Source: Gracilaria domingensis (Eukaryota > Rhodophyta > Florideophyceae > Gracilariales > Gracilariaceae). Taken from it: DNA of 64,000 nt. Made by a program: the position numbers and the translations under genes. Numbering within the stretch: position 1 is the stretch's first letter; each line of letters starts with the position of its first letter. The notes beneath the pieces were generated by a model. That model saw nothing but the letters and a program-made list of their open reading frames with translations, was not told the DNA's origin and made no database searches. The stretch spans positions 124,001 through 188,000 of the forward strand of contig VCMS01000023.1 in NCBI GenBank assembly GCA_022539475.1, given 5' to 3'. Shown in pieces: positions 14,672 to 60,918 of this stretch.

Positions 14672-14709
<38 letters not shown>

Positions 14710-20737: not shown

Positions 20738-22845
20738 TTTGGATTGCCGAAGTTCATATCGCCTGAATTGTAGTACGCAGTTTACGTGAGCGTTTGTTAC
20801 GTCTTATAGTAGTGCGTATCATTGTTATGGTGCGCTTTAATTTTGAATAGAAAAGAATCTGTAGGTGAAGGATGTCAAGTGAAATTGTGGTGTGTTTGAC
20901 CAAAGTATACAGCTGTTCTTTACAAGAAGCGCGCTCTTTCAGTTTGAACTATGAGGCGTACGTTTTCTCATAGGGGAGCTTTGCAACGAAGCCAATTGCC
21001 GGGCTGTTAAAGCTACCATCGACTCTTCTGTGATGAATAAAGGTCAACGAGCGTCAATGTCCCACATTAGCTGTTGTGCCACATTGCGCTGCCAAGGAAG
21101 GTATATATATATACATGTCTGCCGCTCTCGCCCAAAGTAGGCGCGCAACGCAGGGGGAGAGGTATGAAACACAAGGTATTGGCGCGCAAGACAAGATGTA
21201 GCTTCAATTAATTTTCTAACGTTGTACACAGCTCAACTTGACATTTGTGCACCGGCTGTGCCGTACAACATCGCCTAATCGGCCATCATATTTGAGCGCT
21301 CGTTTGTCACTCCAAAACAACAATGCCACAAACTGCAACCTCCGCGCATCTCCCCACTTGTGTGCGAGCCTTTTTTTCTTTTTTTTTTCTGTGTGCTGCC
21401 ACCAGCGCTAGAGCTTAGGTTATTGGCGTTTCACATCTGGGACGGTTGCAGTTGATCATGTCCATAAGCGCGTTGCTTTTTGTGAGTTGTCTCAACAGTT
21501 TGCCGGCCTGCGTGTGGTGCATACACAGTTGTGTCGTGCCATGTGTCGTATGTGGTCGGAGCAATTGCTCGGTCATTAACAACAAAGCGTGTTCCACTGT
21601 TTGCTTTTTTGAGTGCGTTTGTCCAACAGACTTGACTTTTTAGTAGTAGTAGGTGTTAAAAAAACATGCTGCATGTACTTGTAGTAGATGTATACGCAAA
21701 AGTGTGCAACAAAGGAGGCGGACAAGCTTTACTTGGAGCTCAGCAACTGCAAGCGTGCTGCGATGAGTGCAGTTGGGAACGCTACGCCACAGGTGAGTTC
21801 GATACCGTTGCGGAATTGTACGCGTTCTGTCGATGTGCTGATGAATTCAAAGTGGCACGATAAGTAACGCAGCGGAGGCAGCGTCGAAATAAAGAGTGTG
21901 CAAGCAAGCCGAATTGAAGAACGCTATAACATGATGTTGCGGTGGAAAACAAGAGGCACAGGGTTTTTTTTAACGACGAGCGTCGCTCTCGGCTGGCGCG
22001 GCAGGATGTTTTGTTGTGCGGCAGGAATGTCTATCGCGCGGTTTGCACGCGGGCGGGATGGAAAGAGGCAGATTGTGCGCGAAACAGCCGCCATGTATGA
22101 TACCTGACGACCAGCGCGCGCGATGGGCGCTGCTGTTGACGCAGAAACATATCGATAATGTGACGCTCACGAGCGGTGCGGCAAACTCAAGTGCGCGCCG
22201 AAAGAAGAAAAAAAAAGGTGGCGGGGGGGGGGGGGCGTGACCACAAAGAAGCAATGAGCTGCGAGCACGAGCGCCGTCGAGTATACTCTCTCTCGCCGAC
22301 GAGTCGTCGCGCCGCACTGCCAGATGCGCGAGGCGACGAATGGCGGCGCGCGCATATGCGGCGCGTTCGCGCCGCCCGAGCTCACGACTGCCGCCGAGGC
22401 GCTTCGCGCCGGCGCGCGCCGGCGACCGCCACGGCGGCGCGCGGCGCCGCCGGCCGCGGCGCGTACGTGCGCCACTCGGGAGCGCCGCGCGCGTGGCTGC
22501 CGCGCCTCGCGGGCGCGCGGCGCACACGGTCGCGCGAGGCGCGCCGACTGCGCCCGCGGCGCGCCTTTAAGCGCGCCGCGTCGCGCCGCGCACATGGCGC
22601 GCGCGCCGCGGAACGCCGCGCGCGCCACCAACGGGCGCGGCTGCGGGCGCGGCTGCGGGCGCGGCGCCGCCGCGCGCGCGCACGCGGCTCGCGCCATGAT
22701 TTACACGCCGCGGCGGCGGCGGCTGCGGCACGGCTTGCAAATCGTTTGGAAACACGCCGCGCAGCGAGAGATGACGCGTCTGCGACACACGTCACGGCGC
22801 GTGGCGGCTATACGGCGCGTGGCTCACGCGCCGCCGCGATGCAAT
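20738..22845. other. Long intergenic region, simple repeats only
   Basis: About 2.1 kb without a supported gene. It holds a (TA)n run near 21102-21112, poly-T near 21370-21390, an A/G tract and a 13-G run at 22223-22235. From about 22300 the sequence passes into the GC island, and long frames there are composition artefacts. Confidence 0.6.
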
Positions 22846-22881
22846 GCGCGCGCGCGCGCGCGCGCGCGCGCGCGTATAAAA
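22846..22881 (+). promoter_or_regulatory. 29-bp alternating GC run abutting a TATA box
   Basis: A 29-bp strictly alternating G/C run (22846-22874) leads directly into TATAAAA (22875-22881), 63 bp before the ATG of the next gene. Alternating CG of this length can adopt Z-DNA. The TATA box supports a genuine promoter. Confidence 0.55.
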
Positions 22882-22943
22882 GCGGCGCGCGCGCGGCGCG
22901 GCGGCTGCGCGCGCGGGGGGCGGGGGGGCGGGCGAGAAGCGCC

Positions 22944-23588
22944 ATGTCGCGCCGAGCGCCGCTGCCCGATCCGAGCGACCTGCTGCCCAAGGGCTACGCG
23001 CCGCGGCGCGGCGCGGCGCCGCCGGCGCGGCGCGCGGCGCCGGAGCGCGCGCGCGCCGTGCCGGAGCGGCAGCGCGGCGGCGGCGCGCAGCAGCGGCAGC
23101 GCGGCGGCGCGGCCGGCGCGCGGCCGGCGGCGGCGGCGCCCAAGTTCAACCGGTCGCGCCCCAACAACGTGGAGCGGCCGGTGGCGGAGCTGCAGCGCGT
23201 GCCGGCCATGTCGCCGCAGCAGTGGGCCAAGGAGTCGCAGCGCTTCGTCAAGCACTACCTGCCGCTGGTGGAGCGCGGCATCGACATCGAGCCGCTGGTG
23301 CGCGCCAACGCGCGCGCCGCGGCGGCCGCGGCGGGCCACAAGCGGCTGTCGCGCGAGGTGCCGCCGCTGCTCATCCCGCCGTCGGCCATCCCGGAGTACA
23401 AGGGCGTGCTGACGCCCGAGGAGCTGGACGCGGCGTCGCACGCGCCGCCGCGGCCCGCGGCGGCGCCCGCGCCCGCGGCGCCCGCGGCGCCCGCGGCGCC
23501 CGCGCCCGCGCCGTCCACCGCCGTGACGCAGGCGCGCGCGACGCCGGCGCTGGCGCGCGCGGCGGCGCGGCCGCCGCGGCGCGCGCCT

Positions 23589-23630
<42 letters not shown>

Positions 23631-23817
23631 ATTGGGGACGCGCTCGATCAGCGGCCGCTGTCGCGCGCGCACGCGGCGGTGCTGAGCGCGGCGGCGGCGC
23701 AGCGGCGCGCCGTGGCGGCCGGGGCGGTTCCTCCGCCGTGGATGGCGTGCGCGCCGTCGCGGCAGCTGATGGGGTCGCTCGGCAATGGCGGCGCGGCGTC
23801 GTCGTCGTCGGCGGCGG

Positions 23818-23863
<46 letters not shown>

Positions 23864-23945
23864 AAGGGCGCCATCGTCGTCGTCAATTGCGCGGTCGGGG
23901 TCGGGCAAGCGGCCGTCCCGACAGCATCACGCGTGGCAGCGCTGA
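22944..23945 (+). CDS. Ala-rich orphan protein, 333 residues
   Basis: The start MSRRAPLPDPSDLLP at 22944 is chosen because a TATA box lies 63 bp upstream; the frame extends further upstream only through composition-driven sequence. An N-terminal basic, Arg/Ala-rich part is followed by a better-conserved-looking block at about 70-155 (FNRSRPNNVERPVAELQRV, WAKESQRFVKHYLPLVERG, then PPLLIPPSAIPEYKGVLTPEELDA). After that come long Ala/Pro tracts and a Ser/Ala-rich end. No family recognised and no membrane segment. The non-repetitive central block argues for a real protein rather than a GC artefact. It converges on the amidotransferase gene (180 bp). Confidence 0.6.
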
Positions 23946-24125
23946 GCGCGGAGCGCGGAGCGCGGAGCGCGGAGCGCGGGCTGTTCTGGGAGCATGTATG
24001 ACGCAGACAAGATATTTGTAAATAGCTTTGTCGCGTGCAGCGAGCGCAGCGCGGCTGCTGCAAACGGCGAAGGTAGCTAGGTTTTTTATGTCGGCTGTAG
24101 ATAGGGTATGAGAGAAAGCGTGTTG

Positions 24126-25230
24126 TCACACGCGGCGCGGCGGCGGCGGCGGCCGCGCCGCGGCCAGGTTGAGCGCGGCCAGCCGCTGCAGCGCCGGCTG
24201 CTGCTGCGCCAGCATGCGCAGCACGAACGTGCCGCCGTGCACGGTGGCGCCCGAGCGCACGATGCGCTGCACGTGCTCCTTGGAGTAGCGCCGCCGCGGC
24301 GCGCGCCGCGCCAGCCGCGCCAGCGCCGTCGGCAGCTCGCGCGGCTGCAGCGCCGGCGCCGGCGCCGGCGGCGCGGCGGCCAGCCGGCGCGCGTACGCGC
24401 GCGCGGCGGTGACAAACGCCTGGTACGGCAGCGGGCACGCGGCGTAGTCGAAGCGCGGCGGCTGGTCGCGCAGCGCGGCGGCGGCGTCCTGCATGCGCTC
24501 CGGGTGGAACTGCAGCCCGACGCAGAAGCGGCCGGCCGGCGGGTCGTACAGGCGCGGGTCGTAGAACGCCTCCACCAGCCCGTCGGGCGCGCGCGCCATG
24601 GGCGCGAAGCGGCGCGCCAGCGTGTGGATGCCCTGGTGGTGGTAGCTGTTGACGGACAGGCGCGCGGCGCGGAACCACTCGAACAGCGGCGTGTCGCGCC
24701 GCACGGCCAGCGCGTGGCGGTGGGCGTCGTAGTTGGCGTAGTCGATGTGGCGCGCGGCGGCGGGCAGGGCGCACTGCAGGTCGGCGTGCAGCGTGCCGCC
24801 GGCCGCGGCGTTGAGCAGCTGGCAGCCGCGGCAGATGGCCAGCACGGGCACGTGGTGGCGCAGCGCGAAGCGCGCCAGCGCCAGCTCCACGCGGTCGCGC
24901 TCGCGGTCGCCCGCCGTGTCGCCCGCGTGGCGCGCGCGCACCGCCGCCGCCTGCGCCGCGCTCAGCGGCGCCGCGAACGCGCCGGCCATTGCGCTCACGT
25001 CCTCGCCCTCCACCAGCAGCACGCCGTGGATCGGGCGGTACGCGCGCAGCAGCGCGCCGATGGGCGGCGTGCGCGGCACGATCACCGGCTGCGCGCCGTG
25101 GCGCAGCAGCAGGCTCAGGTGGTACTCGCCCACAAAGTTGACGTACTTGCGCTTGCGCTCCAGCCGCCGCGCCACCACCAGCACGCGCGGGAACGCGTGC
25201 GCCGGCGGCGGCGGCGGCGGCGGCGGGGGG

Positions 25231-25262
<32 letters not shown>

Positions 25263-25325
25263 GTGCGGCGGCGCGCGCGGCGGCGGCGGCGGCTGCGGCG
25301 GCGCTGGCGGCGGGGGGGTCGGCAT
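24126..25325 (-). CDS. Class I glutamine amidotransferase-like protein (peptidase C26)
   Basis: A 399-residue protein from the first usable ATG at 25325. It resembles gamma-glutamyl-gamma-aminobutyrate hydrolases and plant GAT1-like proteins, which hydrolyse gamma-glutamyl bonds. Residues 1-43 are almost pure Pro/Ala with a run of 19 prolines. The domain then shows RVLVVARRLERKRKYVNFVGEY, PIHGVLLVEGEDVS, the nucleophile elbow VLAICRGCQLLN (Cys), the HHQ near VNSYHHQGIH, and the catalytic His-Glu in GLQFHPERM. The C-terminal about 100 residues are an Ala/Arg-rich extension. Codon third positions are nearly all G/C. The 5' leader carries two copies of a 17-bp gtttgtgcttgtgcagc-type repeat. The exact substrate is unknown. 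Confidence 0.88.
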
Positions 25326-26015
25326 GTTTGTGCTTGTGCAGCGTTTGTGCTTGTGCAGCTTTTGTGCTGAAGAAGCGCGCGGCGCGGCGGCGGCGCTCGC
25401 GCTAAAGAAGCGCGCGGCGCGCGGCGGGCGCGGAAGACGCGCGCCGCGCGGCGCGCGTCCGGCGGCGGCAGTGGAAGTTGCGCGTGCAGATGGAGAGCGC
25501 CGCAGAGCAACTGCCGCGTCAGCAGCGGCGAGCCAGCGCGACGCGCTGACCATGCGCCACGCGCGCCACGTGCGCGCGCGCCGCCTCGCGCGCCGCCGCC
25601 GCTTCGGCCGCTGCGCGCGCGCGGCGCGCGGCCGCTGCGCGGCCGCTGTGCGGCGGCGGCGCGCCGCGATGCGCATCGGCCGCGCGCAAATATCTCGCGC
25701 GCGCGCCGTGCGCACTGCATGCGCGCGCCGCCGCAGCGCTCGGCGCCGAACGGACGGCGCTGCGCGCGCCGCTGCGCCGCCGCCGCCAGCCGCGCCGTCT
25801 GTCCGCGCGCCGCGCCCGCGCGCCGCCTTAAGCCGCCGCCTCCCGCCCCCCCCCCCTCCGCGCGCGCCGCCCGCCGCCGTATCTTCGCGTATCTGCCCCC
25901 CCCCGCCGCCGCCGCCGCCGCCGCCGTCGCCGCCCGCGCGCCCGCGACAGCGCGCCGCCCCGCCGCCCGCCCGCCCGCGCCGCCCCCCGCCCCGCGCCGC
26001 CCCCCGCCCCGCGCC
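25326..26015. promoter_or_regulatory. GC-rich divergent promoter region
   Basis: 690 bp between the divergent starts of the amidotransferase and DUF547 genes, extremely GC-rich and full of CGCG. No TATA box is visible on either side. Long frames crossing it are artefacts of composition. Confidence 0.5.
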
Positions 26016-27245
26016 ATGCCGGCCGGCAAGCGCGAGCGCGCGCGCGCCGCGCCGCGCGCGTCCTTCTCGGCGCCGGACCAGCGCCTGCCGCCGTCGCCGC
26101 CGCCGCCGCCGCGCGCCGCCGCGCCGTCGCCGCCCTCCGCGCTCATGGCCGCCGTGCGCGCGCGCTACCGCGACGCCGTCGCCACGCTGTTCGGCACGCG
26201 CCCGCGCGTGCTCAACGCGCCCTGCCTGCTGTCCGCCGCGGCGCTCGAGCCCGCGCGCGCGCGCGCGCGCAAGCGCGCCGCGCCCGCGCGCCCCGACAGC
26301 GCGCGCAAGCGCGCGCGCACCGCCGCCGCCGCCGCCGCCGCCGACCAGGTGGTGCCGTCGCGCGTCGTGCGCGCGCGCCCGCGCTGCGCGGACGCGCTCG
26401 AGTGCTCGTGCGCCGCCCCGATATGGCACGCGCGCGGCATTGGGCCGCCGCTCATGCTGCGCACGGCCGAGGAGCTCAGCGAGCGCATCATCAAGCTGTA
26501 CGGCCGCGCCATTGACGCCGCCACCAACGAGGTCCACTACGCGTCGCTGCAGAGCTCGCGCCCCTTTCACCAGTACCTCGTGTCGGCGTGCAAGCTGCGC
26601 TACTTTGACCCCACGCTGCTCGCCGAGCACCACCGCAAGGCCTTCTTCCTCAACGTGTACAACAGCCTCATGATCCACGCCATCGCCGTCATGTCGCGCC
26701 CGCGCACAAAGTACGAGCGCATTTCGCTGTTCAACGTCGCCACCTACAACATTGGCGGCCGCCTCTACTCGCTCAACATGATTGAGCATGGCATTCTGCG
26801 CGCCAACCGCCCGGGCTGCGGCCCGTTTGCGCAGCCCACCTTTGCGGAAGACGACGCGCGACGGCAGTGCGTGCTGCCGCACGTCGACCCGCGCATCCAT
26901 TTTGCACTCAACTGCGGCGCCAGGAGCTGCCCCGCCGTCCGCTTCTACAAGGCCGACACGCTCGACTCCACGCTGGACATTGCCACCACCAGCTACTTGC
27001 AGGACGTTCAGGTCGACGTCGAGCAGCGAACCGTCACGTTGCCAAAGCTGTTTCAATGGTACAAGCGAGATTTTAGCTCGGCTGGCGACCTTGACGAGCT
27101 TATCGAGTGGACATTGGCCTACTTGGATTCGGAAAAGCGACGCCAAATCGATACATTGCTTCGCGATAAGAAGCAACACTCCCGTGCCTTCAAAGTCGTG
27201 TTTGCAGAGTATGACTGGACCATCAACGACAGCTCTGCCCGCTAA
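26016..27245 (+). CDS. DUF547-domain protein
   Basis: A 409-residue protein from ATG 26016. Residues 1-135 are Ala/Arg/Pro-rich and low-complexity. Residues about 165-330 match DUF547, a domain of unknown function widespread in plants, algae and bacteria: FHQYLVSACKLRYFD, HRKAFFLNVYNSLMIHA, YNIGGRLYSLNMIEHGILR, then HFALNCGARSCPAVRFY. In plants the domain is often found with a leucine-zipper N-terminus, which is not seen here. Base composition falls sharply within the gene: the 5' two thirds are extremely GC-rich, while the last about 270 bp have ordinary composition. Single exon. The molecular role is unknown. Confidence 0.88.
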   Translation: MPAGKRERARAAPRASFSAPDQRLPPSPPPPPRAAAPSPPSALMAAVRARYRDAVATLFGTRPRVLNAPCLLSAAALEPARARARKRAAPARPDSARKRARTAAAAAAADQVVPSRVVRARPRCADALECSCAAPIWHARGIGPPLMLRTAEELSERIIKLYGRAIDAATNEVHYASLQSSRPFHQYLVSACKLRYFDPTLLAEHHRKAFFLNVYNSLMIHAIAVMSRPRTKYERISLFNVATYNIGGRLYSLNMIEHGILRANRPGCGPFAQPTFAEDDARRQCVLPHVDPRIHFALNCGARSCPAVRFYKADTLDSTLDIATTSYLQDVQVDVEQRTVTLPKLFQWYKRDFSSAGDLDELIEWTLAYLDSEKRRQIDTLLRDKKQHSRAFKVVFAEYDWTINDSSAR

Positions 27246-45321: not shown

Positions 45322-47454
45322 GGCCGCATATGCTCAGCTCTGGCATTCAAATCGAATGATTGCAATGAAGGGCTATCGTTTTCATAGCACTCAGAGAAGG
45401 AGAGGCCCTCACAAGTTTTTACGATCCGTATAGAACTCTATTGTTGCGTTACACTGAGAACGCAGAAAACGAATGGAGTTCTCAGCATTTCTGCGTCGTT
45501 TGGCTACTCGGTAAGCGGTGCGGAAGAGGAATATTCTTTCTTTCGTTATGTGGGCCGCTACAGCCTAGTTACAACAAGAAGTAAAGGCTGTTGTCCCGAA
45601 TTCCTGTTTGCTCTTGCTTCTCATCATCAGAGGGTTGCTGTAATCAGATTGTTAATCCCAGTACCGCGGGACGCTCTTGTGTAGATGAGGGTCTAGTCGT
45701 AGGAAATAACGCTTTCAGTCAGCACGGATTCTGTGACAGAGGATAATCCTCACTCTCTCTCTCTTTTATGGGCACACTAGCTTAAAGAGAACTAAATGCA
45801 GAGCAAACTTCGAAGAAGTGCTCCCTCACCAGAAAGGCCAACACCTTGTCGGGGCAGTTGGAAGCAATATCACTAACAGCCAGACCTCGACGTCCTACTC
45901 AACAGGATTAGGATAATCCTGATCCTGTAGAGTGATAGAGCAACGGCATGAGGTCAATTGCGTCCTTCACAATTTAGCCGAAGAGATATACCGAAGGTAG
46001 TATTACATGCTGTATTCTAGTGAGACCCCATATCCTTATTGCAAAGTTTTCACGCACACGTTCTGTGAGAGAGTGTGTCAAGAATATCCACAGTTTGTCT
46101 TGAGACAGTGCAGCTGATCCCATTTCACCAGCAACTCGTGAGACTCATGTGATCCAGCTGGCAGCAACTTTTGTGAGTGTAGCATGATTGAATAGTCGGC
46201 ATTAAAGACGGCACTGGGAACAACGGTGAAGGCAGATCGTGCTGCTCAGTAAATGAGACATGATACAACCTTGTTCGTGCGGCAACTTCTTTGTGATGGA
46301 TGGCAGCGAGCTGGTTCAGAACAATAATCGTCTCAGGAGCTAGGGAGGGTGGTTTTGTGTTTCGAAACATTGATGAAGTTGAGGCGTCAAGGGCCAGCGG
46401 CCACAACGAGTTCTGGCGCACAGGTTTCGCGTGAGACAAACTTCTATGAAAGCAAAGTCATTGCTTCTGTCATTCGGGCACCAGTGCATTGCAAATATGA
46501 AGGAAAGGGCCCAGTGAACAAGACCCTAAACATGGAGAAGAAATCAAAAGCATAGGATTCAATACGGTAGTTATTTTTGCCAGCTGGCTAGTCTCATGAG
46601 CTCTCAGGTTTGCGGAGGGGGATGAATCTGATCATGTGAATGCACGTTTTAGGCACAAAAACTGGATCTTTGTGCTCCAGATGAACTGCAAAGACTGAGG
46701 ACAGTTAGAATATATCAGGCATCTACGTCATAGAGGACGACAATTAACCGTCGCAGTCCCCGCAGTTAATGTGGTGGACGCCGCAGAATTGAGCGCAAAC
46801 CGGCAGGTGATTTGTGATGAAACAGATTAGTCCTGCAAGTAAAGTTTGCAAACCAATGACTGTTCGTTCGTATGAGGCCACCCTAACCACAGGGTGTTTT
46901 CGTCCAGAGTATCGTGCACAGATGTTGCAGTCGATAGATGCGAGAGAGAAGCTGCATCAAGCTATACGGCTCGCAAGCGTCCTGCAAGGAGCCAGGAGAC
47001 GACAAATTGCACCTCAGAAGTTGTGAGAACGATTTGAAAATGGGCGCGCTTGGGTCAGTTGTCAGGCCACCGCGCGCTTTGCGCATTTGGCGCGCTCATC
47101 CAAAAATTCGAAAGCAAACGTTTGTGTAACCCGCCAATTGTACTGGCGCACTACTGAAATTCGCTAATTTTTAGCGCACCGCCATGGTCCACGTTGACAT
47201 TGTGCCGCGCGCCGTGTGGTCAGGTCTTTGCTCCTTTTTGAAGCGCCGCAACACCTATATCGAGACTCGGAACTCTTCTTTCTACGCGCCCGTCCGTTCT
47301 CGCCTGTTCCCTTCCCGGCTTCCCAGTTCAAACTCTTGCCCATACTCCGTACGTAACGCCGTTCAGTTATCTACTTCCAATCGCCTATTGTCCGACCGCA
47401 TCGTCCGCCTCGCACGCGCGACCTAGCGCTTTGCGGCCCTCCGAACTGCGGATC
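45322..47454. other. Gene-poor 2.1 kb region
   Basis: No supported gene. Two palindromes with the same core AGGATAATCCT lie at 45740-45750 and 45911-45921. TTTGGCGC (E2F-like) lies at 47096-47103, about 350 bp before the next gene. A + strand frame at 47184-47426 has no recognisable content and is probably leader sequence. Confidence 0.45.
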
Positions 47455-48897
47455 ATGAAACCTCAAACTATACCATTGTCCAACGTCGCCGAGGGCTCAT
47501 CTTCGGTCCTCACCTCCACCAAGACAGGAAAACGGACTTACGCCGATGCAGCTGTGCGACGCAGCGACAGGGACGAGACGCTACCGCTCTCGCTTCAACA
47601 ATCTGCGTCTTTGCGAAAGCGGCATCGACGGAGTGTCGCCAGGCCCGCTTCGTCATCCGTTTCAAGAAAGCTTCTTCGCAGAGAGCTAGGAGAGGATATG
47701 CCCTCCGCTCATGTCAGTTTTGCAATGCAACGCTTCCGCAATATCAAGCTACAGACCACAATGGATGCGCATGATGCAGATGAAATGACTCCCGGTCTCG
47801 CCTGGTCCAGGAACAGATCAAAAATTGTCGAGATTGCAAGCAGCAACGATTTGGTCTTTGGCCTCACGTACAACGGAGTCTGTGCCGTGTTTTCGCGTGA
47901 ATTGAATAAGTGTATATGCTTCATGAACGTGTCGGATGATGAGGTCATCCGATCCTTGTTTCTCAACAAAACCAACGACAGCTTGATCACCGTCTCCGTA
48001 TTCAAGACCGACGACTTTTCCTCATTGCATTGCCGTTCAACGCCCTTGTCGCAGATTCGCACCAAGTACCTCAAATCCGGCTTCAAACTGTTTGAGTCTG
48101 AGAGCTTGCGGTACCCAGGATTTGTGGAATTCGATGACGTGAATGGAAAGATTCTTACTTTCTCGGCTGAGGACCAAAAGTACAAGGTATGGGACTTGAA
48201 CACATACAAGCACTTGTACACTATCCAGAACCAGCGAATCCACGAGGTGAAGATATCACCAGGGCTGATGCTTCTCATTCACGAACGACAAGATGTGCAT
48301 GTGCCCATTCGCATTCACAATATTGAAACAGGTGCGAAACTGCAGGAAATAAACCACCTGGTGCGTCGAAACCGCAAGATCGAGTTCATTGAACAGTTTC
48401 ACGACAAGCTGTTGGTGAAGCAAATTCACGAGAATTTGCAAATCGTTGACGTTTGCTCAGGGAAACGCACGGAAGTAGAGCGCAGTCGTTTTCTCACGCC
48501 AAACTCATTCATTTTCTTGCACGAAAGTGAAATCTTCCTCACCTTCGAGAACCGACGGGTGAATGTGTGGAATTTTAGGGGCGAGCGAATTGTGGTGGAC
48601 TTTGGCGACCATGTGCTGTATCGCTCGGACTCGAGTAACAGTCTCATCTACATTACTCAAAAGCAGGACATTATTCTATCGTATTGTCAGAACGACTCTG
48701 GAACTTGTTCTCATGGGTCTATCAACCTGTCGTGGATTGAGAATGGGAAGCTCATTCATAAGATTAGCTGCGAGGACATTCCTGACCGAAAGCACGTACG
48801 CGCACTCGAAAACGTTTCTGCCGTGCACTACAATGAAGAACGGTCAGAGATTTACTCCGGCACAAAAGACGGGCTTATTCACGTATGGTCAAACTGA
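47455..48897 (+). CDS. Beta-propeller (WD40-like) protein of plant/algal type
   Basis: A 480-residue protein from the first ATG at 47455. The basic, Ser/Thr-rich N-terminus (to about 95) may carry a nuclear signal (SLRKRHRRSVARP). The rest reads as degenerate WD40 blades: FVEFDDVNGKILTFSAEDQ with YKVWDLNTYKHLYTIQ, then KISPGLMLLIHE, IRIHNIETGAKLQEINHL, FIEQFHDKLLVKQIHENLQI, FLHESEIFLTFENRRVNVWN, and the final YSGTKDGLIHVWSN. The central blocks recall a conserved single-copy plant protein group that I cannot name with certainty. Such proteins act as scaffolds; no catalytic motif is seen. No F-box is evident. Single exon. Confidence 0.75.
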   Translation: MKPQTIPLSNVAEGSSSVLTSTKTGKRTYADAAVRRSDRDETLPLSLQQSASLRKRHRRSVARPASSSVSRKLLRRELGEDMPSAHVSFAMQRFRNIKLQTTMDAHDADEMTPGLAWSRNRSKIVEIASSNDLVFGLTYNGVCAVFSRELNKCICFMNVSDDEVIRSLFLNKTNDSLITVSVFKTDDFSSLHCRSTPLSQIRTKYLKSGFKLFESESLRYPGFVEFDDVNGKILTFSAEDQKYKVWDLNTYKHLYTIQNQRIHEVKISPGLMLLIHERQDVHVPIRIHNIETGAKLQEINHLVRRNRKIEFIEQFHDKLLVKQIHENLQIVDVCSGKRTEVERSRFLTPNSFIFLHESEIFLTFENRRVNVWNFRGERIVVDFGDHVLYRSDSSNSLIYITQKQDIILSYCQNDSGTCSHGSINLSWIENGKLIHKISCEDIPDRKHVRALENVSAVHYNEERSEIYSGTKDGLIHVWSN

Positions 48898-49279: not shown

Positions 49280-50149
49280 TTACGGGAACGGTGAATTAAT
49301 GTACATAAACAAGCCGCTCTGGCGCGGCTTTTTGTCGTCCTCTGGTTCCAAAGGAGCCACCTTAAAATCGTCGAATCTCAACAACGTCCTCTTCTTTCCC
49401 TTCTTCTTTCTGCCCATCTGAATACGAACTTTCCTCTCCGGTACCGGGCGCACCACAGCGCCCTCATTCATCTGGCGAAATCGATGAACAGTAACGGCAA
49501 TGCCCTCAAGTGCGGATGTAATATCCGGCAAAGCATCCGGGCGAGTGTCGGCGACTGGCGGCGGCGAAGATGCCACGGCCTGCAGTCGACGGAAGAGTGG
49601 ATCAGTCATATTTTTGGGCTTGACATTGAGAGGGCGCCTGGTAAACAGCAGGCTGTTGACGGAATTGGAGTTACTGGAGTTGCTGTCTCGTTGGGCGGGA
49701 CCCGGAATACGAATGGCTAAGCGGGTGCACTCGGAGGTGTTTTGAACGTATAAGGTGGTCTGCAGGCGACGGCGCTTGCGGGGGGTGCCGATGCGAACAC
49801 GGCGACCAGGGCCGTTGGAACGGAGCGTGACCTTGACTCTTTTGCGAAGCGGACACTTGTCGTCCGAAAAAGGGTTTCCCTTGGGACGGTTGATGGGTTG
49901 AACGCATGAGGGAGGGACTTCTAACTGAATGTTAAGCGGCCGCTGGCGTGGCGGCGGGGAGGCAGGCGGTGAAAGGGAGGTGGGCATGGAAAGAAGCGGG
50001 CTGGAAGGAAGAGTTAGAGGCAAGTCAGGAATGGCGAGAGAGGTCTCCTCGCACAAGAGATCGGAGTCGAAAAAGGACTCTGCCGGCGGAAAGTGCGGGG
50101 GAATAGCAGCATCATTGATCCAGTCATCGGCGAAGTTTGCGTCGGACAT
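49280..50149 (-). CDS. Basic, Pro/Ser-rich orphan nuclear protein, 289 residues
   Basis: The start MSDANFADDWINDAAIPPHF at 50149 is preferred over the longer frame, whose upstream part is low-complexity and crosses a 25-G tract. An acidic N-terminus (DSDLLCEE) is followed by a Pro/Ser-rich stretch, two strongly basic clusters (CPLRKRVKV and GTPRKRRRL), a block PLFRRLQAVASSPPP, and a C-terminal basic patch (QMGRKKKGKKRTLLRFDD). Nuclear location is inferred. No family recognised. The promoter has E2F-like sites, which hints at S-phase expression. Convergent with the beta-propeller gene. Confidence 0.6.
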   Translation of the reverse strand: MSDANFADDWINDAAIPPHFPPAESFFDSDLLCEETSLAIPDLPLTLPSSPLLSMPTSLSPPASPPPRQRPLNIQLEVPPSCVQPINRPKGNPFSDDKCPLRKRVKVTLRSNGPGRRVRIGTPRKRRRLQTTLYVQNTSECTRLAIRIPGPAQRDSNSSNSNSVNSLLFTRRPLNVKPKNMTDPLFRRLQAVASSPPPVADTRPDALPDITSALEGIAVTVHRFRQMNEGAVVRPVPERKVRIQMGRKKKGKKRTLLRFDDFKVAPLEPEDDKKPRQSGLFMYINSPFP

Positions 50150-50520
50150 GACGAGAGGAGGGAGCCTGCGAAGGGAAGGGGGTGATGGGGGAAGGAGGGG
50201 GGGATGCTGCGGTGGGTAATGCGAGGGAGGACGGGCTCCGACTCGCGGGGGGTTGTGTGGTGGCGGGGGGGGGGGGGGGGGGGGGGGGGTTGGGAGTACG
50301 AGGGGAGAAGGGTGCGAGTACGAGCTGGGCTGGCGCGGCGCGGCGCGCGCGATTGAAAAGGGGGGAGCGGCGTGTGGTGCGCTTTGGCGCGAGCGACGCG
50401 GTGCGCGCGATGGCGCCAATCACGGGCGGTGACGCTTCGCATGGCGCCATTTTTTTGATCCGCGCGGCCCGATTTGGCTGAAACTTTTCGGTTGTGCGCC
50501 CGTTTTCGGGCGCTTTTCGC
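50150..50520 (-). promoter_or_regulatory. Promoter with 25-G tract and E2F-like sites
   Basis: An uninterrupted run of 25 G (50265-50289, + strand) lies 116 bp before the ATG of the minus-strand orphan. TTTGGCGC at 50383-50390 fits the E2F/DP consensus, and TTTTCGGGCGC and TTTTCGCGC lie near 50500-50520. Regulation is inferred. Confidence 0.4.
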
Positions 50521-52197
50521 GCTTGGCGCCGTTGCAATGGGCGCTTTTGCGGCGCCAAGTGCGGCGCGCGCGCCGCGCCGCTCGCTGCGCGCATGACGTA
50601 CGCGCGCGCTGGGTGGCCGCCAGCCAGCGCCGCCGCGCCGCGCGCGCGCCCTTTTTTTGGGTGGCGCCCGCCGTTGCGCGCGCGCGGCGGCCGCGCGCGC
50701 GCCGCCCGCGGCGCTGGCGCCGCGGCGCTGGCGCCGCGGTGGCTGCCGGCGGCGCGCCGCGTCGTGGAATGGGCGCGCCGCACTGGCGCGGTCCATCGCG
50801 AATCCGCTTCTTCCACCGCGGCGCCGCCGCCGCCGCCGCGGGCGGCGCTGCTCAGTTGTGAGCGGCTGGTACGTACCGCATCAGTGCATGCGGCCGCCGC
50901 CCGTCCTACACGCGCGCGTTTCTGTACGCACAAGTCATGCGACAGTACTTCCGTTCGATACGCGCTCGTCGATAACGTGGATGCAACGCGCGCGCGCGAA
51001 TCGCAAACGACGGCGAACGACACAACCCTGGCCGCGCTTCCTTTTATCGTAAAATGTTCGGTACCTTTGGTACCCATGGGACATGTCATCGCCGATGGAG
51101 ATACTCTGGAGGCGATCCACCTCCGTGTCGGCTCACCGCCCCACAGCCTCCTCCCGGCGGCATCGCCAGTCGCCGCGCGATCGCATTCTTCCTCTCTTTC
51201 CAGCTCGATTGCTCCTACTGCGGCGCTGTTTCTCCCTCCCAAATGGTCCTTTCCAGCCATGCGCCGCAAGCTACCGACGGTCGTCGTGGTGCTCTCAAAG
51301 CATTCGCCCCGGGAATGATCTCAATTAACGGCTCCCAGCAATGCCCACGCCGTCCATCACACGCCCTTGATCACGGTCCGCCTCAAGTACAATGACAAAC
51401 CCCAATAACTGACGCCAACTGTCAACAGCAGCTTACAAAAGCGCGGCGTAGACCGGAGTGTCATCGCTGCAAACTCGCGTCTTGCACCCCGAATAACCGC
51501 GCCTGGTCACTGTTCTCGCCCACGCCGTGTGGCCCCGATTCCGCGTTACTCCACTCAGAATGACTGGTGCGCCAACCAAAAGCGCTACAGTGACACTCAC
51601 ACTTGGCACCTAGCGCCAAAGCCAAAACGAGTGCGCTGGAGAAATCCTCAATAGCCGCTATGCCGCACCCTACGTCACCTGCCGTACTGTCACTTGCCGC
51701 CATCCGAGCTTTCCCACCTGTATTTGCTCATACGTTTGTCATAAGGCGTTTGTACGCGAAACCTCCCACGAACACGTGCATCTCTCAGAGTGGGCTATTG
51801 CCCAAAGGCCCGCGCTCATCGCCGACACTTGTACAGTATTATATGCAATAACGACGGTTCATATCTGCATCTCCGTTCCACTCAAATCCACCCCCCCTGC
51901 CATCTCTGAATCCTTGATGAGGACTAAGTTTTCCGCCGTCTTCTGCAATTCACTACTGCTTTGAGCACTTTGCGTTTCTTTTCCTCCCTCACCGACACAG
52001 CAGCGCAACATCCACTGCTTTACAGCTCGTCTGCTCGTTCCGTTTGGCTGTATATCTATCTGCCCTCTTTAATCCGGCTGCGAGCCGTTCCATACGTCCT
52101 CTCCACAGACACCCTGCTTCCCGGCTCTACCGCTCACTGCACCGCACGTCTTTCGTGCAGACCTGTGGCTCAACATTTCGCCTACAGCTGCTGCAGA
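50521..52197. other. GC island then leader of zinc-finger gene; no gene seen
   Basis: 50.5-50.85 kb is extremely GC-rich with many GGCGCC and CGCG blocks. Long frames there are composition artefacts. Two GGTACC sites lie at about 51058-51072. The last 240 bp are open in frame with the zinc-finger gene but contain no ATG. Confidence 0.5.
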
Positions 52198-56451: not shown

Positions 56452-59400
56452 ATGTCGCACAACGCTTTTTCTTCGCAAACGCCAAAGTTTCGAATCTTTC
56501 TCAGCCATGCAGGTGAAGACAAAGAAACAATCGCCCGGCCGTTGTATACTCGCCTTACTAAGAATGGACTCTCCGTTTTCCTCGACAACGAGTCCTTTCG
56601 GGTTGGCGAACATTGCCCTAAGGTCATGGAGCACGCTATGCAAACTGCGCCTGTGGGCGTGTTCATCATGAGCCCCGAATTTGTTGCGAAGCACTGGACC
56701 ATGCGTGAGCTTCTGGCATTCGTCAAGCGCTACGATGACGCGATCGCTGCCCAAGAGGCCCCGCCGTTGCTTATTCCAGTGTACTACCGCTTCACAACCC
56801 GCGAGTGCCGTGATACAACCATCTATGAAACCTACAGTAAGCTCTTTCTTCGACACGGTCTTTTTGGGCGAGCAAAGAAGGGGTTTATAAAGCTGGAAGA
56901 TGTGGACCATGCGTTGGATACGGCTGCAACTGTTTGGGGGGTGGAGAACAATTGTGGTGCATCCAACTCGTGCAGCCCCGACATGTCGGACACCAGAGAG
57001 AAATTTATCCAAACTATTGAGAACAACATTTTGGAACGTCTTGGAATTGAGAGATCTCCTCTAGAAAACGGCAGCCATCCAGTTGTTAGTAGCCCCTCTG
57101 TACATCAAGACGTATATAATCCATGCAGTATTCTGCTCCCTAATCCTCCGCGATTAACGTTGGACTACGGCTCCCCAACCACATGTGAAGGAAGATTGAA
57201 AGCAGCGGTTTTAGAGGCTAGCGAGAGCCGAATTGTTGCTGTTGTGGCTAGTGGAAAAGGTGGAGTTGGTAAGACGTGCGCTTTAAGAGGACTCGCAGAA
57301 GACAAAGATATCAAAACAGTGTTTGATGGAGGTATTTTTTACATTCAACTTGGAAAAGATGCTACGGTATCGACTATTATTGACGAAATCGCCAAAATTG
57401 TTCATTGCACGAGGGGCTCGAGGCTGTCAAATGAGGTAAGGACATGCAAGTCTGTTCGAGACGCATCGCAGAAGGCTGCGCAATGGTTTTGCCCACATTC
57501 ATGTTTGTTCCTTGTGGATGATATTTGGCATGTAAATGGAATAGATTGTGATGTGCTAACATCTCTAGGGCTCATGTTGAACACAAAGAGTAGATTGGTA
57601 TACACAACGAGGGACAACCATTTTTTGGTGCGAGCGAATGAAGTGATTGAGTTCAAGGAGAAGGAGGTAGTTGGGGAGTTGTCGCGCCGAATGTTAATGA
57701 CACACGCGGGGTTTAAGCGAAACACTGTTCTTTATGGAAAGAACGAGAAGGCATTTAACTATTTTCTGACACTGTGCCATGGACTTCCGCTTGGGTTTGG
57801 TATTGTGGGAGGATCCGTCCGACGATATTCATTTTCGAGCTCGCCGAAGGAGAACGCATGGTCAGATTTTCACGAAGATGTTTGTTCACAAGATGCGGAC
57901 TTGATGGAAGCTGAAGCGGAAACATATGGTGCACTACCAAAGATTGTGGATATATCTCTTGAAGTGCTTGAGAAATGGAATGGAGATGGAAAGTATGGGT
58001 ACTGGTTTCGTGCTCTATGTGTAATTCAAAAACAGCAATCAGTGCCTGTCAGGATGCTACAGAAGCTATGGAACTTGGATACGATAAAGGAAACGAAAAG
58101 TGTGGTGAAATCGTTCGCATACGTTTCAATTGTGCAAAGTACGAGAGATCATGGAGTGGTCTACGTACAGCTGCATGACTTGATTCTAGACATTGCCGCT
58201 CGCAAAGCCAAGGAAGGCGGTGAGACGGAGGCTCTCTTCAGATCGCTTGTGAGAAATTACGAGCGATCTGGCCCAAGGATTGAGAGAGAAGAGTCACGTA
58301 GATCTAGAAAGAGACATTTGGAGGGTTATGCAGATTGTGATGATACAGTGTATAACGCTGTAAGTCGCAAAATGCGGCATGGAACAAGAATCAAGGAGCT
58401 GTATCAAACTCCTGCTTTGAAGCGCTTTCTATGCGGCGAAGGTGAGGGAGATGATTCATGGATTAGAAAGCAACATGCGGAAATTGACAAAGAAGAAGAA
58501 CTCGTGACAGGGATGAGGAAGCAAGCCTCTTCAAATGCGGTGGTGTTTCATGCGTGGTGGAGCACAGAAGATGATGGGTATATTTGCGACAACCTGTGCA
58601 GGATTCTTCGAAAGGCAGGATATGGAGAGCAGCTACTGTGGCTATTGTCGCAACCGCAATGGATTGTGAAGCGATTTGTTGAAAGTGGAATACTTGGTGT
58701 GGAAGACGACCTGGATCATGGAAAAGCTGTTTGCGGGGATCATTCTTTGCAACCAGCAATTCACAAGGAGCATCTACAAATGATTGAACGAGCTGCTAGG
58801 AGGGGTGCATTTTTCGTTAGAGAGAACCGTCGAGTGGAGGAGGCTTGGTTCCAGATTCACGGGCGGTTGCTTTGGCACGCGACACAGAACGAGTTGACGA
58901 GGGATTTCGTGGAGAGGATGGAAAGATGTGGGCCGAAACCTTGGCTGAAAGCGTCCGAGGGGCTGTTAGAACAGGCGGGTGCTGGTGCACTGCAAGTTGT
59001 CAGTGTCGAGCGTGATGTTGTGTGCATGCGCATAGAGCACAATACTACCTGGATTCTGTCGTTTAAACCAGAAAACAATATGATGCATGTGGGAAAATAC
59101 GAAACGTCGAATGAATACTACAAAGAAGAGAAGCTCGAAAGGCCTGGACAGTCGTTTGGAAAACTTCAGTGTGCTTCGTTCTTGCCGGATCAAAGAAGAG
59201 TTGTGACTGCGCACGATGATGGAAGCATTTGTGTATGGAACAGGGGAACAGGAATTTGCGAAGAAGTTGTAGCACACGACTGTGCAAATCACATAGAGTT
59301 TGTCGGCTTTTGCGCGGAGGGAGCTCTGCTTGCGTGCGAGAAAGAGAATCATACTATTCAGCTGTGGGAAACACTTAGCAGGAAAGCCTCCGGGCAGCGG

Positions 59401-60918
59401 CGCCAAGGTCACACGGGCACGGTGACCTGCGTGGCTGTAGACGCGAACGGCACTCGCATCGTTTCAGGTTCAGATGACATGACTGTGCGTGTGTGGGACG
59501 CTGAAAGCGGTGACGCCGAACGCGGTGACGCCTTCGGGCGGCTGCTCGAGGGGCACACAGACTTTGTGAGTTGCGTGGCTGTATTCAGGGATGGCAGCCG
59601 TGTTGTGTCTGGGTCAAAAGATAGAACAGTTCGTGTGTGGGATGTTGAAAGCGGCAACGCCGTCGGACAGTTGCTCGAAGGGCATACAGAGCAGGTGACG
59701 TGCGTCGCTGTCAACACGGACGGCACTCGCATCGTGTCTGGGTCAGGGGACGGAACGGTGCGTGTGTGGGATGCTCAAAACGGCAACGCAGTGGGGCAGC
59801 TGCTCCAAGGTCACCTAAACTATGTGACTTGTGTAGGTATGAATGCGGACGGCACTCGCATCTTGTCAGGGTCACTGGACAAAACAGTGCGTGTCTGGGA
59901 CGCCCATGGCGCCAACGCCGTCAGACAGCCATTTCGAGGTCACACAGACAAAGTGACGTGCGTAGATGTTAGCGCAGACGGAGCTCGCATCGTGACTGCC
60001 TCAAATGACATGACTTTGCGTGTTTGGGACACCGGGAGTGGCGAGGCCATCGGACAGCCGCTCAGAGGTCACCCAAGCTGGGTGGGGTGCGTGGCCTTGA
60101 ACGCAGACGGCACCCGCATTTTGTCAGGATCATTGGACGGAACGGTGCGTGTGTGGGAGGTTGCAAGCGGCGACGCCGTTGGAGAGCCGCTCGAAGGTCA
60201 CACGGATTTAGTGCAGTGCGTTGCCATGAGCGCGGACGGCACTCGCATTGTGTCTGGTTCCTGGGACGGATCGGTGCGTGTGTGGGACGCTGAGAGCAAC
60301 ATCGCCGTCGGACAGCCGCTCCGGGGTCACGCATACGGCGTTACGTGCGTGGCTGTAAACACGGACGGCTCGCGCATCGTGTCTGGCTCCGTCGACGGGA
60401 CGGTTCGTGTGTGGGACGCTGACGGCAACTTTGCCGTCGGCCAGCCGCTACGAGGCCATATAGAGGCGCTGACGTGCGTGACTTTGTCAGCGGACGGCAC
60501 GCACATCGTTTCTGGCTCAGCCGACAAGACGGTGCGTGTGTGGGACACCGAAAGCGGCGACGTCGTCGTCCTGCCGCTCCGAGGTCACGCGAAGTGGGTG
60601 GCGCGCGTGGCTGTGAGCGTGGATGGCAGCCATGTTGTGTCGGGAGACGCAGAATTGGAAGGATTATGGGCGCTGAACGGCGATGGCGGTGAGTGCGTGC
60701 TCACGTCACGTGAGGCCGCATGGCTGCCTACCATCAAGTCGCTCGAGCTCACGACGTCTGCGATTCCATCTTGGGAGCCCTCGCAGCGGGAGGTGCGTGA
60801 AGTCGCAGAGGACGGCTCTGAGATTGTACTGGCCACTTGCGAACGCGCGTTGCACAACGTCCGCGGTGGTGATGTGTACTTCACACAGGACTTCCGCTCG
60901 TGCCGTATTGAGCGCTGA
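56452..60918 (+). CDS. TIR-NB-ARC-WD40 NLR-like receptor, 1488 residues
   Basis: ATG 56452, single exon. Residues 12-150 are a TIR domain: FRIFLSHAGEDKE, then SPEFVAKHWTMREL, in which Glu86 occupies the NADase glutamate position of plant and SARM1 TIRs. Residues about 230-600 are NB-ARC: P-loop GKGGVGKT (268-275), LFLVDDIW (Walker B, Asp356-Asp357), YTTRD (384-388), GLPLG (444-448), a winged-helix-like part and an LHDL in MHD position (574-577). A helical linker runs to about 885, two degenerate WD40 blades to 985, then about ten highly alike 43-residue WD40 units (986 to about 1418) and an unrelated tail of about 70 residues. In plant and fungal relatives such proteins oligomerise on ligand sensing and trigger immunity or cell death. 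That role, with WD40 as sensor, is inferred here. All switch motifs look intact. Confidence 0.93.
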   Translation: MSHNAFSSQTPKFRIFLSHAGEDKETIARPLYTRLTKNGLSVFLDNESFRVGEHCPKVMEHAMQTAPVGVFIMSPEFVAKHWTMRELLAFVKRYDDAIAAQEAPPLLIPVYYRFTTRECRDTTIYETYSKLFLRHGLFGRAKKGFIKLEDVDHALDTAATVWGVENNCGASNSCSPDMSDTREKFIQTIENNILERLGIERSPLENGSHPVVSSPSVHQDVYNPCSILLPNPPRLTLDYGSPTTCEGRLKAAVLEASESRIVAVVASGKGGVGKTCALRGLAEDKDIKTVFDGGIFYIQLGKDATVSTIIDEIAKIVHCTRGSRLSNEVRTCKSVRDASQKAAQWFCPHSCLFLVDDIWHVNGIDCDVLTSLGLMLNTKSRLVYTTRDNHFLVRANEVIEFKEKEVVGELSRRMLMTHAGFKRNTVLYGKNEKAFNYFLTLCHGLPLGFGIVGGSVRRYSFSSSPKENAWSDFHEDVCSQDADLMEAEAETYGALPKIVDISLEVLEKWNGDGKYGYWFRALCVIQKQQSVPVRMLQKLWNLDTIKETKSVVKSFAYVSIVQSTRDHGVVYVQLHDLILDIAARKAKEGGETEALFRSLVRNYERSGPRIEREESRRSRKRHLEGYADCDDTVYNAVSRKMRHGTRIKELYQTPALKRFLCGEGEGDDSWIRKQHAEIDKEEELVTGMRKQASSNAVVFHAWWSTEDDGYICDNLCRILRKAGYGEQLLWLLSQPQWIVKRFVESGILGVEDDLDHGKAVCGDHSLQPAIHKEHLQMIERAARRGAFFVRENRRVEEAWFQIHGRLLWHATQNELTRDFVERMERCGPKPWLKASEGLLEQAGAGALQVVSVERDVVCMRIEHNTTWILSFKPENNMMHVGKYETSNEYYKEEKLERPGQSFGKLQCASFLPDQRRVVTAHDDGSICVWNRGTGICEEVVAHDCANHIEFVGFCAEGALLACEKENHTIQLWETLSRKASGQRRQGHTGTVTCVAVDANGTRIVSGSDDMTVRVWDAESGDAERGDAFGRLLEGHTDFVSCVAVFRDGSRVVSGSKDRTVRVWDVESGNAVGQLLEGHTEQVTCVAVNTDGTRIVSGSGDGTVRVWDAQNGNAVGQLLQGHLNYVTCVGMNADGTRILSGSLDKTVRVWDAHGANAVRQPFRGHTDKVTCVDVSADGARIVTASNDMTLRVWDTGSGEAIGQPLRGHPSWVGCVALNADGTRILSGSLDGTVRVWEVASGDAVGEPLEGHTDLVQCVAMSADGTRIVSGSWDGSVRVWDAESNIAVGQPLRGHAYGVTCVAVNTDGSRIVSGSVDGTVRVWDADGNFAVGQPLRGHIEALTCVTLSADGTHIVSGSADKTVRVWDTESGDVVVLPLRGHAKWVARVAVSVDGSHVVSGDAELEGLWALNGDGGECVLTSREAAWLPTIKSLELTTSAIPSWEPSQREVREVAEDGSEIVLATCERALHNVRGGDVYFTQDFRSCRIER
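59407..60660 (+). repeat. 129-bp tandem repeats coding WD40 units
   Basis: Units start at 59407, 59551, 59680, 59809, 59938, 60067, 60196, 60325, 60454 and 60583. All are exactly 129 bp except the first, which is 144 bp because of a 15-bp internal duplication. The coding cores for V-x-CVA, DGTRIVSGS and TVRVWD are nearly identical in DNA. The last unit is degenerate after SHVVSG. Confidence 0.95.

Follow-up and report, generated by a model that had tools for sequence, protein, structure and literature searches.

The window, by which is meant the whole stretch of 64,000 nucleotides that was analysed, contains an intronless gene whose predicted product joins a TIR domain, an NB-ARC nucleotide switch, a winged helix and a C-terminal WD40 sensor. 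Its features, in window coordinates, are as follows.

56452..60918, forward: the gene, one uninterrupted frame that encodes 1488 residues and closes with a stop codon, in the order TIR, NB-ARC, winged helix, WD40
56494..56796, forward: TIR domain, residues 15-115 (Pfam TIR_2, 1.4e-15)
56707-56709, forward: Glu86 within W-T-M-R-E-L, aligning with the Glu of bacterial TIRs
57193..57837, forward: NB-ARC nucleotide switch, residues 248-462 (Pfam NB-ARC, 4e-13)
57253, 57505 and 57781, forward: NB-ARC motifs, respectively the P-loop GKGGVGKT, Walker B LFLVDDIW and GLPL
58003..58191, forward: winged helix of APAF-1-like type, residues 518-580 (score under the Pfam cut-off)
58168, forward: MHD-like LHD within QLHDL
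59032..59406, forward: degenerate WD40-like blades preceding the array, seen in the translation and as strands in a low-confidence model
59407-60711, forward: WD40 array, the C-terminal sensor, inside the frame 56452-60918
59407..59550, forward: WD40 unit 1, 48 residues, with an AESGD/AERGD near-duplication
59551..60582, forward: WD40 units 2-9, 43 residues each, whose codons 4, 5, 7, 23 and 25 are the family's variable ones
59551, 59680, 59809, 59938, 60067, 60196, 60325 and 60454, forward: starts of units 2-9
60583..60711, forward: degenerate WD40 unit 10, with 21-35% amino acid identity to units 1-9
60712..60915, forward: C-terminal tail ending VRGGDVYFTQDFRSCRIER

The NB-ARC domain scored 49.6 bits against a Pfam cut-off of 23.5 and, by its P-loop, Walker B and MHD-like motifs, is predicted to be that of a STAND/NLR receptor; the winged helix is a weak match (Pfam APAF-1-like_WHD, 20.0 bits, under the cut-off of 27). 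The TIR domain matched bacterial structures in phmmer comparisons (7uxr, 2.7e-14; 7uwg, 1.4e-12; 8g83, named NAD(+) hydrolase AbTIR, 2.4e-12), and AbTIR and its relatives are the nearest solved TIRs by sequence, the W-x-x-x-E-L segment included; these bacterial proteins are not known to be NLR fusions. Glu86 lies where NADase TIRs carry their catalytic Glu, and the domain, with this residue in a predicted TIR fold, is likely a NADase. All 21 frames bearing the SHAGEDKE motif, the window gene among them, carry W-x-x-x-E-L, and a tail like that of the window gene also closes those TIR-class paralogue frames whose ends were inspected.

Bacterial contamination is unlikely because the neighbours in the window include Ufd2-core, C2H2 zinc-finger and adenylate kinase-DUF3054 proteins and the paralogues are spread over many further contigs. 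Twelve phycobilisome matches were found in the genome, ten of them on contig C680; such genes presumably point to red algae, and the host of the gene is probably a red alga. With TIR, NB-ARC and WD40 predicted in one protein, the gene has the domain composition of the red-algal TIR-NB-ARC-WD40 type, an architecture already known from Chondrus. For Chondrus crispus, 61 NB genes have been described, 58 of them NB-WD40, and 23 of the latter have TIR; compared by description, these proteins share the three-part architecture in a gene family of similar order, and the available parts of the accounts leave unit shuffling and site-specific selection unmentioned (PMC7145615, PMC9806590). The 77.9 Mb genome of the window gene gave 88 NB-ARC and 42 TIR matches, and 70 of its stretches match the window protein; 30 paralogue loci were retrieved, and 166 of 175 unit matches were retained.

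The WD40 array had been characterised in a preliminary description as ten 43-residue units, almost unchanged and of high internal conservation. Chance repeats were ruled out: Tandem Repeats Finder gave a score of 676 at a period of 129, and Pfam WD40 matched with E 1.4e-105. The unit length holds for units 2-9, but unit 1 is longer and unit 10 is degenerate, leaving nine conserved units. The degree of conservation was overstated: units 1-9 share on average 60% of their amino acids (51-74%) and 69% of their nucleotides (64-74%), and high internal conservation was rejected because these values fall far under the 85% that serves as its threshold in fungal NLRs (PMC4986451). Judged by the scale of PMC5587647, this array ranks as 'moderately repetitive'.

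The residues that the same description had listed, at positions 3-5 of ten units and at positions 7, 23 and 25 of units 1-9, were all correctly read; it had called these sites hypervariable. By replacement differences (pN), the six sites are among the top seven of the array (23, 5, 25, 7, 12, 4, 3), but by number of residues only two positions are conspicuous, 5 with nine and 23 with eight: six residues occur at 4 and at the unlisted 33, five at 3 and at the unlisted 36, and four at 7 and 25, equal to 10, 12, 34 and 40. Over 159 units of the family, positions 4, 5, 7, 23 and 25 proved variable (3.06-3.83 bits), but position 3 was much less so (1.49 bits) and linker position 33 was as variable as the hot sites (3.36 bits).

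Position 3 was excluded from both the hot and the framework sets in the close-pair, codon-position, array-ratio, bacterial and C33 analyses. The hot set comprised 5, 7, 23 and 25 in the close-pair pN/pS analysis, and 4, 5, 7, 23 and 25 in the gene-pair, codon-position, array-ratio, bacterial and C33 analyses; site 4 was kept and site 3 dropped only after the family had been viewed, a possible source of bias. Loci L019 and L029_p1, which duplicate L018 and L028, belong to the set of 29 arrays and were left out of the close-pair, codon-position and tree analyses; the ratio analysis covered 23 arrays, without L019 and without arrays of fewer than four units.

Unit arrays differ in age among the paralogues, and some sister genes have young, shuffled repeats. 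Mean unit nucleotide identity was at least 0.82 in six of the 29 arrays, here termed young, and at least 0.85 in three, and none of the 29 had a mean amino acid identity of at least 0.85. Among 17 paralogous genes, the number of full units ranged from 4 to 9, and 66 of 159 units had their nearest neighbour within their own gene (5.5 expected). In the C33 array, a chosen example picked for the even 126-base spacing of its matches, the two-unit blocks 5-6 and 7-8 of 12 units are 98.4% identical, and the sites with at least four residues are exactly 23, 5, 4, 25 and 7. Repeat shuffling, as previously proposed, is supported by these unit numbers and block repeats in the paralogues, but not in the window gene, where only one of nine units has its nearest unit within its own gene. 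A DNA search of its own genome for a near copy of the window array found none (best other match, 74% identical). The window gene belongs to the older, more diverged members of the family, and its own repeats are old.

Young paralogue arrays carry an excess of replacements at the hot sites. In the six young arrays, the fastest of the 43 sites were 23, 4, 7, 5, 25 and 3. Among 23 within-gene unit pairs of at least 0.90 identity, pN was 0.37 and pS 0.16 at sites 5, 7, 23 and 25, as against 0.014 and 0.057 at unlisted sites of 1-31. The ratio of hot-site pN to framework pS was 2.4-18 in 10 of 23 arrays (L036, 18.0 with a range of 12-38; L033, 5.2; L023, 4.7; L038, 3.7; L016, 3.2), with a bootstrap lower bound above 1 in 13 and at or below 1 in 10. 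The tandem neighbours L011 and L012 differ little in NB-ARC (dS 0.034) and in the middle (dS 0.037), and have a hot dN of 0.66 and a framework dS of 0.19; their hot-site excess gave p 3e-5 in a Fisher test, a test that took rounded counts from the gene-pair analysis and treated sites as independent. Because their array framework dS exceeds their NB-ARC dS, it was concluded that the two arrays have exchanged segments.

The excess emerges when hot replacements are compared with framework synonymous change. Inside the hot codons, dN/dS in six gene pairs was 1.15, 0.64, 1.12, 2.92, 0.75 and 1.46, and tree-based per-site values over 159 units were 1.02, 1.32, 1.67, 1.15 and 0.81 at 4, 5, 7, 23 and 25, with no site significant after correction for 43 sites. 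Synonymous change, too, is raised at the hot codons of the close pairs, so unit exchange or a mutational contribution may underlie part of the hot-codon change. In the window gene, pN was 0.66 and pS 0.71 at sites 5, 7, 23 and 25, and 0.19 and 0.48 at sites outside the original list; the dN/dS comparison that had been suggested thus gives hot sites above the core, yet saturation at these sites is too strong for a value above 1 to be seen. The diversifying pattern likened earlier to that of HET-D/E/R is supported in young paralogue arrays, but neither in the window gene against L009 nor in the tree-based test after correction.

Domain order, motifs, family size, array ages, the excess in young arrays and the block repeats of one array are the observed part of a reading that we consider probable: that the gene encodes an intracellular STAND/NLR-type immune receptor, likely with a NADase TIR, whose WD40 face owes its diversity to duplication, unit exchange and selection. 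In the resting state, the NB-ARC/winged-helix switch would be closed with ADP. The WD40 propeller or propellers would sense a non-self molecule or a guarded host protein with their top face, where residues 4, 5, 7, 23 and 25 of each unit would point outward and bind it. Binding would lead to nucleotide exchange and oligomerisation of NB-ARC, which may bring the TIR domains together as a NAD+-consuming enzyme and so cause defence or cell death. The family would diversify as genes are duplicated, N-terminal and WD40 segments exchanged, and units gained and lost, with diversifying selection on the hot codons as a further driver.

It is possible, if doubtful, that the window gene is instead an ordinary old WD40 scaffold whose top-face differences are normal and owe nothing to diversifying selection. 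Its units are diverged and near saturation, its ratio of hot-site pN to framework pS (1.25) overlaps the range in seven bacterial WD40 arrays (0.53-1.32), and the hot-site excess in the comparison with its closest paralogue, L009, was non-significant (p 0.12). The bacterial comparison took in 16 loci, of which six yielded the seven arrays of at least five units (two from L053) and ten yielded none; all seven are old arrays and none is young. However, the bootstrap interval of the window gene (1.03-1.59) begins slightly above 1, its family shows the replacement excess at the same sites, and its amino acid identity between units exceeds the value of under 0.4 given for almost all animal and plant WD40 proteins (PMC5587647).

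Concerted evolution without diversifying selection, in which exchange homogenises the framework and the hot codons are unconstrained or imported from other genes, appears unlikely. It would accommodate the clustering of units by gene and the high framework dS of L011/L012, and the GC3 of the array exceeds that of the NB-ARC body in 17 of 17 genes (0.64 vs 0.48), as expected of GC-biased conversion. However, conversion tracts should homogenise codons 4, 5, 7, 23 and 25 as well unless selection opposes this, and hot-site pN is up to 18 fold above the framework pS of the same units.

A non-immune STAND role, in stress or developmental signalling or in APAF1-like apoptosis, seems quite unlikely. 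The WD40 chains of APAF-1 (3sfz, 3j2t) match the window array, the weak winged-helix match is APAF-1-like, and APAF-1 presumably shares NB-ARC, winged helix and WD40 propellers with the window gene. APAF-1 has a CARD where the window gene has TIR, and it is not known to form a diversified family. The size of the algal family, its tandem clusters and the rapid evolution of its sensor would suit immunity better, and three Pyropia genes with NB-ARC and WD40 are up-regulated during oomycete infection (PMC6928737).

Targeted hypermutation of the hot codons in place of selection, by a diversity-generating retroelement or a codon-specific mutator, is very improbable. It would fit the raised synonymous differences at hot codons and the third codon positions at 4, 7, 23 and 25, which vary in 25-42% of the 36 pairs that are at least 0.88 identical. 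At site 5, however, third-position differences occur in 5.6% of these pairs only (framework level, 5.2%), as against 42% and 58% for positions 1 and 2, and a retroelement or other adenine mutagenesis is unsupported because the adenines of the framework vary hardly more than its guanines (0.034 vs 0.031).

A further comparison for the receptor reading comes from the HNWD genes het-d, het-e and het-r of Podospora anserina, which likewise encode a STAND receptor with a WD40 array (PMC1805685, PMC2873952, PMC12222747). The same unit positions vary in both families. In our alignment, Podospora repeat codons 7, 9, 25 and 27, which are under diversifying selection in HNWD, correspond to unit positions 5, 7, 23 and 25 of the window gene (offset 2; PMC2873952, PMC1805685), and in our alignment with the unit printed in PMC12222747, positions 3, 4, 5, 7, 23 and 25 are six of the seven with high dN/dS there (offset 7). 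The paralogues also resemble HNWD in including arrays of similar units and in differing in unit number. In contrast, HNWD repeats are over 80% to 100% identical as against 69% of nucleotides in the window gene, and allorecognition has been demonstrated for HNWD, whereas the recognition role of the window gene is a prediction. Membership of HET-D/E/R was rejected because TIR and NB-ARC occupy the places of HET and NACHT; the Pfam scan of residues 1-883 listed 10 families with E no higher than 1, and neither HET nor NACHT was one of them. Both AlphaFold models, made without an alignment, were poor (mean pLDDT 57 and 41), and Foldseek with the WD40 model gave an rmsd of at least 6.4 A among the 50 matches listed and was not used for residue placement; because the models were poor, the proposed top-face position of the hot residues rests on homology to HET-E.

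A broader proposal, to which we give low credence, is that red algae independently run an HNWD-type system, a repertoire with TIR NADase output whose WD40 faces are shuffled and selected at the fungal codons and which also recognises fused or invading algal cells. Proposed settings for such recognition are germling coalescence, secondary pit connections and red-algal parasites that fuse with their hosts. If the receptor reading is confirmed, the fungal manner of diversifying WD40 self/non-self receptors would extend to a lineage far from fungi, joined there to a TIR output as in plant receptors, and the employment of one protein face as a variable surface for recognition would be convergent (or very old). 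The family offers concrete algal genes and codons with which to look for strain-specific intracellular immunity or allorecognition in seaweeds. Brown-algal ROCO-LRR proteins are likewise algal candidate receptors that diversify through repeat shuffling, but their LRR units lie in separate exons, whereas the WD40 units described here lie in one uninterrupted frame (PMC11378527).

The putative receptor gene can be read as one uninterrupted frame, and the parts recognised in it are as follows.

56452-60918, + strand: receptor open frame, 1488 residues, for which an intronless reading suffices
Residues 15-115 of the protein: TIR_2 domain (Pfam)
Residues 248-462 of the protein: NB-ARC domain (Pfam)
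Residues 518-580 of the protein: APAF-1-like winged helix (Pfam, sub-threshold)
From 59407, + strand: WD40 array (repeats recognised by Pfam)

P-loop, Walker B, GLPL and MHD-like LHD motifs are present in the NB-ARC and winged-helix regions. Among solved structures, the best matches of the TIR domain are bacterial, one being named as the NAD(+) hydrolase AbTIR, and its W-x-x-x-E-L segment aligns with bacterial TIRs, including the Glu that we take to be the catalytic residue. By homology, the WD40 face would be the sensor, the NB-ARC domain a switch that oligomerises, and the TIR domain a consumer of NAD+; these roles are predictions, the observation being the list of domains. The available text of earlier papers already records TIR-NB-ARC-WD40 proteins in Chondrus (PMC7145615, PMC9806590) and NB-ARC with WD40 in Pyropia (PMC6928737). 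Among the matches listed in a search of titles and abstract beginnings in the open-licence literature, no report of selection or unit exchange in red-algal NLR/WD40 receptors was found, and the portions available of PMC7145615 and PMC11378527 do not describe diversifying selection of red-algal WD40 receptors.

The array of this gene comprises a first unit of 48 residues, units 2-9 of 43 residues, and a degenerate unit 10. The variable residues that the preliminary description had listed for it (unit positions 3, 4, 5, 7, 23 and 25) were correct on re-reading, but the high internal conservation claimed for the units is not borne out: units 1-9 share on average 60% of amino acids and 69% of nucleotides (maximum 74% each), where the published sense of the term is above 85% (PMC4986451, in the part available), and their pooled synonymous distance is 0.81. 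The same codon is nevertheless used in 0.59 of same-residue pairs, whereas the codon usage of the array predicts 0.40 and none of 1000 draws exceeded 0.48, so the units descend from duplicated units, though not from recent duplications. All six listed sites fall among the top seven by replacement differences (pN), the other being site 12. The ratio of pN at hot sites (4, 5, 7, 23 and 25) to synonymous differences (pS) at framework sites, with position 3 in neither set, is 1.25 (1.03-1.59). As a control, seven WD40 arrays of bacteria, which came from 6 of 16 loci and were counted in the same way, gave 0.53-1.32. By this measure the gene is indistinguishable from ordinary WD40 proteins. Positions 5, 7, 23 and 25 are exposed top-face sites in WD40 propellers generally, so blade-to-blade variation within one old protein proves little.

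Paralogues were sampled from the genome (77.9 Mb, 680 contigs; the window is C23:124001-188000), in which profile searches matched NB-ARC 88 times, TIR 42 times and phycobilisome families 12 times, 10 of these last on contig C680. The phycobilisome matches suggest that the host is a red alga. The sample consists of 30 loci, covering all places found by the search with the receptor protein except its own; because just 31 of 457 first-look candidates were scored in that search, the family may be larger. Several loci are disrupted by stops or shortening. Of the 21 frames that carry the SHAGEDKE motif, all have W-x-x-x-E-L and 20 have the P-loop pattern.

Paralogues vary widely in how alike their units are. 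Of 29 arrays, six (L023, L026_p1, L032, L033, L036 and L038) have a mean nucleotide identity between units of at least 0.82, and three of at least 0.85; no array reaches a mean of 0.85 in amino acids. In these six young arrays, the fastest of the 43 sites by pN are 23, 4, 7, 5, 25 and 3 (0.68-0.249), closely followed by 40 (0.244) and 33 (0.228). The fastest sites thus coincide with the listed ones, though that list came from another gene. In 23 within-gene unit pairs of at least 0.90 identity, pN is 0.37 and pS 0.16 at sites 5, 7, 23 and 25, compared with 0.014 and 0.057 at the unlisted sites of positions 1-31. Among 23 arrays with at least four units, 10 have a ratio of hot pN to framework pS of 2.39 or more, the highest being L036 with 18.0 (12-38). 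Thirteen arrays, including that of the window gene (1.03), have a lower bootstrap bound above 1, and in four the ratio is close to or below 1.0 (L010 1.00, L013 0.99, L014 1.00, L035 0.77).

L011 and L012, which start about 6.3 kb apart on contig C220, differ little in NB-ARC (dN 0.012, dS 0.034; middle dS 0.037), but their hot codons show dN 0.66 vs framework dS 0.19 (one-sided Fisher p 3e-5). The p values of the same test are 4e-4 for L011/L016, 3.5e-5 for L012/L016, 4e-4 for L032/L036 and 4e-4 for L011/L022; for the window gene against L009 it gave p 0.12. Within hot codons alone, dN/dS is 1.15, 0.64 and 1.12 for L011/L012, L011/L016 and L012/L016, and 2.92, 1.46 and 0.75 for L032/L036, L011/L022 and window gene/L009, vs framework values of 0.22-0.51 across the six pairs. 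The TIR part of L011/L012 has dS 0.68, beside 0.034 in the adjoining NB-ARC, which looks like a segment swapped by recombination between tandem genes.

Against selection stands a parsimony count of per-site dN/dS on a tree of 159 units, in which no site survives correction for 43 sites (smallest p 0.013; dN/dS 1.02, 1.32, 1.67, 1.15 and 0.81 at sites 4, 5, 7, 23 and 25). A tree of this kind is broken by unit exchange and saturated in its deep branches, but even so it supports selection less well than the pairwise comparisons do. Close pairs also have an elevated pS at hot codons. In 36 unit pairs of at least 0.88 identity, third positions of codons 4, 7, 23 and 25 lie above background (25-42%), whereas that of codon 5, at 5.6%, does not stand out from the background of 5.2%. 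The ratio of hot pN to hot pS drops from 2.3 to 0.9 with decreasing pair similarity, as saturation would give.

The sites agree with those of fungal receptors. As far as the available text of the sources goes, strong positive selection in the Podospora HNWD unit falls on codons 7, 9, 25 and 27 (PMC1805685, PMC2873952), which by our own alignment from the G of GH correspond to 5, 7, 23 and 25 here, and in HET-E the four sit on the top interaction face (PMC1805685). Seven high-dN/dS positions reported elsewhere (10, 11, 12, 14, 30, 32 and 39; PMC12222747) become 3, 4, 5, 7, 23, 25 and 32 when aligned by us to the unit printed in the part available.

Judged by framework DNA, 66 of 159 units have their nearest neighbour in their own gene, where 5.5 would be expected and 1000 label shuffles gave at most 17. 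These include every unit of L023, L026_p1, L033, L034, L036 and L038 but only one of nine in the window gene. In a 12-unit array on contig C33, an example picked for even spacing, exactly five sites (23, 5, 4, 25 and 7) carry at least four different residues. Identity among its two-unit blocks 5-6, 7-8 and 9-10 is 92.5-98.4%, and hot pN over framework pS is 4.7. Two units spaced four apart in L034 are 98.4% identical. All 17 genes compared have a higher GC3 in the array than in the part of the body with NB-ARC (0.64 vs 0.48), which is compatible with GC-biased conversion, though C-terminal tails are likewise GC-rich.

Output domains of more than one kind seemingly occur in the family, which has at least two types of N-terminus: in the first 230 residues of L032-L037 neither a TIR nor any other Pfam family scores above threshold, while their body is NB-ARC-WD40 as in the TIR class; perhaps this N-terminus is a helical output domain. 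In TIR-class paralogue frames the array, with its rapidly evolving units, is followed by a well-conserved tail of the type GGDVYFTxDFRSCRIVR, which may be a strand that closes the propeller or a binding motif. Four TIR-NB-ARC copies (L027-L030, C28:271940-300167) are spaced by about 6.2 kb, with one gap double; the pairs listed are 96-99.5% identical across 4.0-5.3 kb, and the 808-residue open segment stops short of the WD40 array. L018 (C104:4700-9700) and L019 (C494:14000-19000) are identical along 4977 bases, which is a recent duplication or an assembly-duplicated haplotype.

Further genes that share the window with the receptor include these.

8128-9234, - strand: putative restriction endonuclease of the Uma2 type (Pfam E 3.9e-13)
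47431-48894, + strand: DUF7899 protein (E 6.4e-165), with weak beta-propeller matches

Uma2 is mainly bacterial, and the gene here carries a 21-base tandem repeat (8271-8415). GC islands of 70-82% occur at 14001-15000, 22001-27000 and 50001-51000 on a background mostly of 42-58%; the 22-27 kb island contains GC-rich simple repeats and frames encoding Peptidase_C26 and DUF547 domains.
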